Below, piece by piece: positions 54,403 through 55,822 of a stretch of DNA of 64,000 nt. This DNA is from Methanolobus psychrophilus R15 (GTDB taxonomy: Archaea > Halobacteriota > Methanosarcinia > Methanosarcinales > Methanosarcinaceae): the NCBI GenBank assembly GCA_000306725.1, contig CP003083.1, positions 1,178,001-1,242,000 of the forward strand, written 5' to 3'. The notes under the pieces were generated by a model. It saw nothing but the letters and a program-made list of their open reading frames with translations, made no database searches and was not told where the DNA came from. Numbering within the stretch: the stretch's first letter is position 1; every line of letters begins with the position of its first letter. Made by a program: the position numbers and the translations under genes.

Positions 54403-55647
54403 TTGATGATCATCAACGCAGATCTCCATCTGCATTCTAAGTACTCAATGGCCTGTTCAGGCAAAATGGACCTCCCAACCATAGCACAAGAGGCTGCAAA
54501 AAAAGGCATAGATCTGGTCGCGACTGGGGACTGCATACACCCCCAATGGATGAAAGAGATAAGAGATGCCGCGGTCGATGATGAGAACATTGTCCTGGGA
54601 AAAACTACTTTTACACTTACAACAGAGATCGAGGACAATCACCGTGTCCATCATCTTTTGATACTTCCTTCCATATCCAAAGCTCAGGAGCTTGCAGAAA
54701 CGATGGCCAGGCACGGCAATCTTTCTTCTGACGGGCGCCCCACTGTACGCCTTAACGGAACAGAGATAGCTGAGATAGCCAGGGACATCGGAGCTCTGAT
54801 CGGACCCTGTCATGCCTTTACCCCCTGGACTGCCATGTATGCTTACCATGATTCCCTTAAAAGCTGTTATGGAGACATGACTGATTATGTATCGTTTCTG
54901 GAACTTGGCCTGAGCGCAGACAGTGACTATGCAGACCGCATAAGCGAACTCCACAGGTTGACCTTCCTTACTAATTCCGATGCGCATTCCCCTGTTCCCA
55001 ACAAGCTTGCAAGAGAATTCAACAGGATGGAAGTTCCTGACATGTCTTTTGAAGGGCTCAGGAAAGCAATCCTCAGACAGAACAATTACCGGGTCATAAT
55101 GAACGTAGGATTCTATCCCCAGGAGGGAAAGTATAACGAGTCTGCCTGCATCAAATGTTTCACCCACTACTCACTGGAAGAGAGCGTTTCAAGCAAATGG
55201 AAATGCAGCGTTTGCGGAGGGCGTATCAAGAAAGGAGTATATGACAGGGTCAACGAGCTTGCAGACCTTCCGCGACCCGTCCATCCTGACCACAGGCCTC
55301 CGTATGTGCATCTGATGCCCCTCTCTGAGATTATCATGATGGCTCTGGGACATGCCAGTATCAATACCAAAGGAGTGCAGGATGCATGGAACACACTTCT
55401 TGACAGGTTCACAGACGAGCTGCAGGTACTCCTCCACACACAGCCACAAAACATGGACTTCGTGGATAAGAGGGTCGTTGATGCGATACTTGCTTTCAGG
55501 GAAGGGAAGGTCATTCTCCATCCAGGAGGCGGCGGCCAGTATGGACATATCGAACTACCTCCGGATATGGGAACAGCCAGGACAGCAGGAAAAGAAGAGG
55601 ACGGCAAAGGAAACAAAAAGAGCCAGAGCTCCCTGTTTGATTTCTGA
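54403..55647 (+). CDS. PHP-domain phosphoesterase (COG1379) with C-terminal PIP-like motif
   Basis: A 414-residue PHP phosphoesterase. The metal motifs are NADLHLHSKYSMACSG (residues 5-20), ATGDCIHPQW, a Glu in TLTTEIED with HRVHHLL, GPCHAFTP and TNSDAHSP. A rubredoxin-like zinc ribbon (CIKCFTHYS, CSVCGG) follows. Residues 408-414, the very C-terminus, are QSSLFDF after a basic linker, matching the start of a PCNA-interacting (PIP) box. The substrate is unknown, but PHP proteins include DNA-polymerase exonucleases. It follows the PAC2-like gene by 6 bases. Confidence 0.85.
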   Translation: MMIINADLHLHSKYSMACSGKMDLPTIAQEAAKKGIDLVATGDCIHPQWMKEIRDAAVDDENIVLGKTTFTLTTEIEDNHRVHHLLILPSISKAQELAETMARHGNLSSDGRPTVRLNGTEIAEIARDIGALIGPCHAFTPWTAMYAYHDSLKSCYGDMTDYVSFLELGLSADSDYADRISELHRLTFLTNSDAHSPVPNKLAREFNRMEVPDMSFEGLRKAILRQNNYRVIMNVGFYPQEGKYNESACIKCFTHYSLEESVSSKWKCSVCGGRIKKGVYDRVNELADLPRPVHPDHRPPYVHLMPLSEIIMMALGHASINTKGVQDAWNTLLDRFTDELQVLLHTQPQNMDFVDKRVVDAILAFREGKVILHPGGGGQYGHIELPPDMGTARTAGKEEDGKGNKKSQSSLFDF

Positions 55648-55706
55648 TTTTCAGCTTATGAAAGCTCGATACCTATATAATATATAACAGCCTTCAAACA
55701 CTGCGT

Positions 55707-55822
55707 GCCGAGGTGGCAGAGCGGACTAATCTGACGGCAAAGCGGCCCCGGAGTCCAAACGCGACCGGCTCGAGACCGGTTTCTCTGAAAAGAGTGCTTG
55801 GGTTCAAATCCCAACCTCGGCG
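55707..55822 (+). tRNA. tRNA-Ser(CGA) with about 29 extra bases between D-arm and anticodon arm
   Basis: Acceptor stem GCCGAGG (55707-55713) pairs with CCTCGGC (55815-55821), discriminator G 55822. D-arm CAG/CTG is at 55717-55733. Anticodon stem ACCGG (55764-55768) pairs with CCGGT (55776-55780) around loop CTCGAGA, giving anticodon CGA (55771-55773). A long variable arm with CTCT/AGAG follows (55781-55797), as in class II Ser tRNA, then T-arm TTGGG TTCAAAT CCCAA. Bases 55735-55763 are extra; removing them gives a normal 87-base tRNA. CCA is not encoded. The extra part may be a non-canonical intron; I could not draw a convincing bulge-helix-bulge. Confidence 0.8.

Follow-up and report, generated by a model that had tools for sequence, protein, structure and literature searches.

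A probable non-canonical intron conserved at the end of the D loop of tRNA-Ser(CGA) in Methanolobus psychrophilus and related archaea

Introduction

Can a euryarchaeal serine tRNA gene carry an intron inside its D arm, and could the splicing endonuclease of its host remove it? The question is raised by tRNA-Ser(CGA) of Methanolobus psychrophilus R15. The gene lies in the window analysed here, a stretch of 64,000 nucleotides (positions 1178001-1242000 of one 3,072,769-base contig of the genome), and positions given below are those of the window. A first-pass annotation had seen in this gene an insertion at a site other than 37/38, the canonical place for archaeal tRNA introns.

Reviews, cited here like the other literature from portions of their text, describe euryarchaeal tRNA introns as single and at the canonical place (PMC4090602), hold that alpha2 and alpha4 EndAs cut the canonical bulge-helix-bulge (BHB) motif only (PMC4033280), and name Korarchaeum as the only alpha2 archaeon with non-canonical introns (PMC4090602, PMC4033280). 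Efficient removal of relaxed introns is ascribed to (alpha-beta)2 and epsilon2 enzymes only (PMC6379350). The alpha'2 EndA of Archaeoglobus fulgidus (AFU) is described as requiring a strict 3-nt bulge (PMC12397907), and the Haloferax enzyme as strictly requiring the hBHBh' motif (PMC7714728). BHL-like motifs are elsewhere described as cleavable by homodimers and heterotetramers (PMC8707768).

For M. psychrophilus itself, pre-tRNA-Arg3 and pre-tRNA-Tyr have been used as intron-containing substrates, in a paper whose main text gives no match for 'Ser' (PMC7479834, in part). An RNA-seq study of the species reports 49 start sites, belonging to 40 tRNA genes (PMC5378194). The tRNAscan-SE 2.0 paper, in the portion available, presents one non-canonical intron model built on crenarchaeal and euryarchaeal introns, and individual members of the family described below may already be predicted in GtRNAdb/tRNAscan-SE 2.0 tables. 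The literature searched, excerpts among it and subscription papers mostly beyond its reach, yielded no description of a D-loop intron in Ser(CGA).

The tRNA-Ser(CGA) gene

The gene at 55707-55822 (+) is borne out. All arms are present in addition to the insert: a 7-bp acceptor stem, a 5-bp anticodon stem with the 7-nt loop CTCGAGA, a long variable arm and a 5-bp T arm. Exon 1 (tRNA positions 1-21) occupies 55707..55728 and exon 2 (positions 22-73) 55759..55822, both on the + strand, with the anticodon CGA at 55771-55773; the boundaries come from intronless orthologues and bulge geometry. Standard searches miss it. ARAGORN with default settings found no tRNA in the 64-kb window, an Rfam scan of the window found none either, and the gene is absent from the 47 matches (46 above the cut-off) of an Rfam tRNA search of the whole genome. 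The tRNA-Pyl gene of the same genome (G000:C1:1665056-1665124) scored 28.6 bits there, just under the cut-off. A plasmid search gave no match.

A promoter-like, BRE/TATA-like element, CGATACCTATATAA (55667..55680, +), lies 40 nt upstream of the gene. A motif resembling CGWTA..TWTWWA, defined post hoc from sequences already inspected, stands 39-47 nt upstream of Ser(CGA) at all 27 loci of the genus, and a preset TATA expression matched 12 of these 27 upstream regions as against 387 of 5400 random 60-mers. The upstream neighbour (54403..55647, +) encodes a TIGR00375 family protein (TIGR00375, 344 bits).

Could the locus be a pseudogene with an inserted sequence, its UCG codons being left to Ser(UGA)? 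The other serine tRNAs called in the genome (anticodons GGA, TGA and GCT) do include Ser(UGA), which could read UCG by wobble. However, no second Ser(CGA) appears among the tRNAs found in the genome, the arms carry compensatory changes in a 39-sequence alignment, and the gene is kept, with its conserved upstream element, in 27 of 27 genomes of the genus. We consider a pseudogene extremely unlikely.

The D stem contains one mismatch, A12 (55718) with C23 (55760). It is common to intron-bearing and intronless families, with T23 in seven of 57 genes, and may be either a tolerated mismatch or a site of C-to-U editing.

Intron position and boundaries

The insert had been described as 29 bases at 55735-55763, between the D arm and the anticodon stem. 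Relatives and BHB geometry place it inside the D arm instead, as 30 nt at 55729..55758 (+; sequence-equivalent 55730-55759), where the D loop ends; this is site 21/22, in a tRNA numbering (A14 G15 C16 G18 G19 A20 C20a U20b A21) that we assigned by hand. Its assignment to a non-canonical site withstands the comparison. The insertion does not lie one base 3' of the anticodon, and site 37/38 is excluded by an uninterrupted 7-nt loop, CTCGAGA, on a 5-bp stem that shows compensatory changes.

The boundaries follow from intronless orthologues in families f3 and f5, which have the exact intronless form of the predicted product with one exception among 11. Removal of the insert leaves GGACTAACGCG, the reading of 10 of the 11 orthologues printed, the eleventh having GGCCAAATGCG. 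At the junction 10 of the 11 read GCAGAGCGGACTAACGCG and one (G046) reads GCGGCCAAATGCG; the spliced product should therefore be GGACTA joined to ACGCG, and the insert is 30 nt long. A repeat, GACGGC/GACCGGC, had been thought to make the cut sites ambiguous, but it is incidental and does not mark them: its first copy sits in a variable part of the intron and is not conserved in relatives. The true ambiguity at the junction is a repeated A, which permits a shift of one nucleotide (55729-55758 or 55730-55759).

The insert interrupts the tRNA gene, and its removal restores a standard tRNA. The window gene with the intron removed in silico scores 118.7 in ARAGORN, and the predicted mature Ser(CGA) is 86 nt long in all 41 loci parsed. 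ARAGORN called Ser(cga) in 58 of 59 distinct genes when spliced and in 14 of 59 when unspliced; 54 other loci, which have a T-loop intron or failed to parse for other reasons, stood outside this test. With intron settings its calls around the window gene were spurious ones for Lys and Gly and one for Ser with a 32/33 intron; we rejected them all.

Two other cuts deserve mention, the 29 nt at 55735-55763 and a cut yielding AAT+GCG, which would restore an A12-U23 pair and was the product that we preferred at first. AAT+GCG has the best ARAGORN score (120.9, against 118.7 for the preferred product and 116.9 for the 55735-55763 version), and U23 does occur in some relatives (7/57). We rejected it on account of the intronless relatives, 10 of the 11 printed reading GGACTAACGCG; moreover, the would-be U23 is the first base of the basal intron helix, and in one of 57 genes this base is C and its partner has changed to G. 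The boundaries 55735-55763 are not conserved in relatives. We rate these alternative cuts as very unlikely.

The bases might instead be retained, which would give the mature tRNA an enlarged D loop, and in the 39-sequence alignment the arms are indeed still pairable with the insert in place. Against this, among 57 genes the insert ranges from 16 to 47 nt and the splice motif persists, intronless orthologues exist in f3 and f5, G18 and G19 would be locked in a helix, and Ser(cga) is called far less often from unspliced genes (the counts above); the one Ser(cga) that permissive ARAGORN settings return for the unspliced window gene is misplaced, its start lying within the gene (98.5). Retention of the bases therefore has hardly any probability in our estimate, and we proceed with an intron at 21/22.

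The splice motif

Exon GGAC (G18 G19 A20 C20a, 55723..55726) can pair with GTCC at the 3' end of the intron (55753..55756) in a 4-bp central helix. A 3-nt 5' bulge, TA^A (55727..55729), and a 3' bulge, AA^A (55757..55759), flank it, each with a predicted cut (^) after its second base; on the 3' side the outer helix is non-adjacent. The rest of the intron closes a hairpin (55730..55752) with the basal helix TCT/GGA, mostly TCC/GGA in relatives, and a variable apex. All of these elements are on the + strand. An unconstrained minimum-energy fold of the window precursor gave the same central helix, bulge and hairpin.

The main tally of the motif used 65 loci from BLAST and covariance-model searches, which were not gathered by splice letters, and a parser that fixes only GCAGAG, CTCGAGA and the closing acceptor stem. 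Sixty-three of the loci parse, as 57 distinct genes, some of them found with a model trained on others and thus not independent draws; L043 (a wobble pair in the acceptor stem) and L102 (a broken copy) failed. Exon GGAC forms four of four pairs with the intron 3' end, next to the 3-nt 5' bulge, in 57 of 57 genes. The 3' strand, whose letters were not imposed, is GTCC in 31, GTCT in 19 and GTTC in 7. The 5' bulge reads TAA (43), AAA (5), CAA (4), AAT (4) or AAG (1) and the 3' bulge AAA (32), ATA (21), CAA (2), TAA (1) or ACA (1). The three basal pairs of the intron are TA 56 and CG 1; CG 51, TG 3, TA 2 and one mismatch; and CG 49, TA 5, GC 2 and TG 1. All 57 genes have A as the second base of the 5' bulge but A, T or G as the third, which makes the third base the most likely start of the intron. 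Intron length ranges from 16 to 47 nt at a single site. The recurrence of site and motif in 57 of 57 genes not gathered by splice letters excludes chance.

Larger tallies of 98 and 96 genes agree with this result. We do not use them as proof, because their parsers and the letter pattern fix many of the letters concerned. The parsers fix the A of the 5' bulge, A22, C/T at 23 and base 16 (as C in the 98-gene parser and C/T in the 96-gene parser), to which the 98-gene parser adds the letters of the helix strand. The 98-gene tally dropped nine of 153 loci, namely six genuine ones, two chance matches and one masked sequence.

Over the 39-sequence alignment, 100% of the cells of the 30 modelled pairs are able to pair, compared with 95.7 +/- 0.3% in shuffles. 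Covariation within the splice motif is modest: the changes in this alignment are all one-sided, and pairs altered on both sides occur in the wider gene set. Folding of intron cores against shuffled loops showed no advantage for two short introns and a weak one for many others; we do not use the stability of the apical stem as evidence, because the advantage is not uniformly significant. An alternative structure, S2, with a 3-bp central helix (GAC/GTC) and an outer helix (GCG/YGC), pairs equally well on the 39 sequences. We disfavour it, given that the base it leaves in the bulge is a pyrimidine (C or T) in all 57 genes and that archaeal BHB central helices have 4 bp according to an excerpt of PMC7714728.

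The 3' side is relaxed. A strict hBHBh' motif, in which a 3-nt 3' bulge directly adjoins the outer exon helix, occurs in 0 of 57 genes, as the pairs 16-23 and 15-24 that it would require after such a bulge are possible in none. A 4-nt 3' bulge with outer pairs 16-24 and 15-25 is possible in all 57, and an internal loop reaching the D stem fits equally well; bulge and loop are left side by side because 15-16 and 10-11 compete for 24-25 and neither pair of positions varies. Either way, the motif is a relaxed BHB (BHL/hBH), irregular or looped on its 3' side, in 57 of 57 genes.

The splicing endonuclease

The genome of M. psychrophilus encodes EndA, in one ORF of 355 aa with two tRNA_int_endo domains (NCBIfam equivalog NF006795), and has no other PF01974 gene. 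By this domain layout the enzyme is of the two-domain alpha'2 type and presumably a homodimer. All 15 further genomes examined, some carrying the intron and some lacking it, likewise have a two-domain, single-ORF EndA, as do five of six genomes of two families outside the class; the sixth has one domain at a contig end. EndA matches occur in 55 of 60 genomes (own included), and none was found in G014, G035, G038, G051 and G059, which are 56-93% complete. The match in G018 has an internal stop, and the genome G008 has an additional 43-aa fragment.

The best solved match of the Methanolobus EndA is PDB chain 1r0v, which we take to be the alpha'2 EndA of A. fulgidus. The two are alike in having two domains per chain. 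A specificity loop of CSL/ASL size (about 10 residues) is absent from 16 aligned EndAs of 22 loci given (L131, L137, L158-L160, L339-L344, L346, L348-L351). The loop of the Methanolobus EndA is one residue longer than that of AFU EndA, and 3p1y, presumably AFU EndA with a grafted loop, is nine residues longer than the Methanolobus enzyme there. A second difference from AFU EndA, which has Ser at this place, is a Lys after FYG. In the 16 aligned EndAs the residue right after the (F/L)(Y/F)G motif of the catalytic domain is Lys, or Arg in one f4 sequence, close to where the ARMAN-2 loop has its lysine.

Might another nuclease cut the intron in place of EndA? None of the 57 genes has a strict BHB on the 3' side, and alpha2 enzymes are claimed to be strict in excerpts of PMC4033280, PMC12397907 and PMC7714728. 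The 5' half, however, is a textbook BHB, and a homodimer is able to cut BHL-like motifs according to part of PMC8707768. We think it very improbable that an enzyme other than EndA is responsible.

Distribution

Our first search covered 60 genomes, that of M. psychrophilus and 59 relatives. The insert-bearing Ser(CGA) is present in 27 of 27 Methanolobus genomes (own and all 26 others). A covariance model gave a full-length, intron-bearing match of 103-124 nt in 79 of 185 genomes of the order (own included), and a damaged or masked one in two more (G040 and G052). Non-canonical introns had been called rare in Euryarchaeota, which matches portions of the reviews (PMC4090602, PMC4033280) but does not hold for the Ser(CGA) intron, widespread as it is in the order; the identification of the insert as a non-canonical intron in a euryarchaeal tRNA-Ser(CGA) was right in kind, as comparison and motif indicate. 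In the family of the window eight genera have the intron (g1, g3, g4, g5, g6, g8, g24, g25), and we give no verdict for g9, g10 and g23, whose matches were other tRNAs or not displayed. An intronless Ser(CGA) match of 85-86 nt, at 79 bits at least, was obtained from 45 genomes, every one of them in family f3 or f5.

In the Methanothrix family (f7), Ser(CGA) matches are 148-165 nt long in at least 40 genomes and 173 nt in one more. In all 13 genes inspected there, the D-loop intron is accompanied by another intron, which lies in the T loop (59/60); the double-intron loci are L221-L232 and L236. Among 35 distinct T-loop introns parsed, all four central pairs form in 8 and three of four in 27, the helix reading TTCA/TGAA in 8 and TTCA/GGAA in 27.

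A sample of 392 genomes of the phylum gave long Ser(CGA) matches outside the class in five f8 genomes and one f33 genome. The three f8 genes and one f33 gene inspected carry the D-loop intron, down to 16 nt. In f8 (L370-L372) the 16-17-nt D-loop intron is accompanied by a variable-arm extension of ~30 nt, which may be another intron or simply a long variable arm. In f18 (L373-L375) and in f6 (L238, L239), Ser(CGA) lacks the D-loop intron and appears to have a canonical one at 37/38.

A letter-pattern scan of a named genome collection (84,980 species) yielded 91 stretches, of which 87 parse as Ser(CGA); of the rest, two are genuine and two are chance matches (L327, Roseovarius, and L329). L327 aside, the 80 titles listed name Methanolobus, Methanococcoides, Methanohalophilus, Methanohalobium, Methanosalsum, Methanosarcinaceae/Methanosarcinales (one isolate labelled ANME3), ANME-2 cluster, GoM-Arc1/Argoarchaeum (one filed as Methanoperedenaceae), Methanothrix/Methanosaeta, Methanotrichaceae, and unclassified Euryarchaeota/archaea. 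Judged by these sequences, the same intron is present in many related methanogens and methane- or ethane-oxidising archaea. At L314, L102 (an ANME-2 HR1 contig) and L335 a hairpin-rich insert interrupts the intron-bearing Ser(CGA) in its 3' half; the insert may be a mobile element, or these may be broken copies.

Locus synteny and intron loss

A TIGR00375 relative stands beside Ser(CGA) at eight of eight intron-bearing f1 loci and at nine of nine Methanosarcina-type loci. It was found at four of 10 named loci of other groups and at none of three f3/f5 loci; missing thus at six of the former and all of the latter, it makes this a synteny of Methanosarcinaceae only. At the nine orthologous loci of Methanosarcina-type genomes (g2, g7, g11; L192, L194, L195, L197, L198, L201-L203, L209) Ser(CGA) is intronless and 80-84 nt long. 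One of these genes, L195, was compared further. Its first 25 nt are identical at 23 positions to L211, a Ser(GGA) from a different genome within the genus, and 18 are identical in alignment with the spliced window gene. The Methanosarcina intron was probably lost by gene conversion that replaced the 5' half of Ser(CGA).

Discussion

We read the insert as a genuine, conserved non-canonical tRNA intron at 21/22 that is removed by EndA, and put the probability of this at about 94%. In the precursor, exon G18-G19-A20-C20a would pair with the intron 3' end GTCC while the remaining intron closes a hairpin. The resulting motif would have a 4-bp central helix next to a 3-nt bulge on the 5' side; its 3' side would be relaxed and BHL-like, formed by an internal loop that extends to the D stem or by a 4-nt bulge with the outer pairs 15-25 and 16-24. 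We infer that the two-domain EndA homodimer accepts this substrate and cuts it, the predicted cut nucleotide being the second base of each bulge. A ligase, presumably RtcB, would then join A21 to A22, giving the 86-nt tRNA-Ser(CGA) and a 30-nt circle that includes AUCUGACGG. Until spliced, the precursor would be unable to form the contacts between D loop and T loop, because G18 and G19 would be locked in the intron helix.

Our intron fits the view that homodimers cut BHL-like motifs. A coevolution paper in PNAS in 2005 is said to have concluded that both homodimers and heterotetramers can do so.

Introns of this kind are already known, and what is notable here is the pairing of host and enzyme, together with the Methanothrix T-loop intron. 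D-arm introns are abundant in Crenarchaeota and Nanoarchaeota (e.g. 20/21, 22/23; PMC4090602, in part), and the Ser(CGA) intron resembles them in being short, in lying in the D arm, and in its BHB-like junction with a 4-bp central helix and a relaxed outer side. Unlike them, it is hosted by Euryarchaeota with an alpha'2-type EndA without known specificity loops, and it occupies one site of one isoacceptor, conserved across families. It shares with the 37/38 introns of tRNA-Met(CAT) and tRNA-Tyr(GTA) of its own genome the presumed enzyme and the presumed cut after the second bulge base. It differs from them in position; in addition, the tRNA-Met(CAT) intron, read by eye, fits a strict motif, its outer helix directly adjoining and both bulges being 3 nt long, which the Ser(CGA) intron does not. 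Excerpts of PMC4033280 report tRNAs with multiple introns in Methanopyrus kandleri and Methanothermobacter thermautotrophicus, and Methanothrix Ser(CGA) is likewise a case of multiple introns outside Crenarchaeota. Methanothrix, however, combines its D-loop and T-loop introns with a two-domain EndA, whereas Methanopyrus has an (alpha-beta)2 enzyme (PMC6379350, in part).

The intron stands in testable conflict with the rule of the reviews that alpha2 and alpha4 enzymes are strictly specific, and its pairing with this enzyme is unexpected. A conserved, relaxed D-loop intron in alpha'2 lineages offers a natural substrate for testing the disagreement over homodimer specificity, and the intron-bearing genera Methanolobus, Methanococcoides and Methanohalophilus have cultured strains. 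Default ARAGORN and the Rfam tRNA model miss the window gene, and Ser(CGA) may therefore be missing from the annotation of genomes of this kind. The Methanosarcina locus is a likely case of intron loss by replacement of a 5' half.

We give even odds to the broader proposition that relaxed BHL-like introns are natural and long-standing substrates of the alpha'2 EndAs of this class and of two families beyond it. If true, the rule of a strict BHB at 37/38 for euryarchaeal alpha2/alpha4 enzymes would fail across an entire class, and Methanothrix would offer a natural example of two non-canonical introns in a single euryarchaeal tRNA. Both introns would lie where the D and T loops must touch, and splicing of one or both would be a checkpoint in the folding of tRNA-Ser(CGA).
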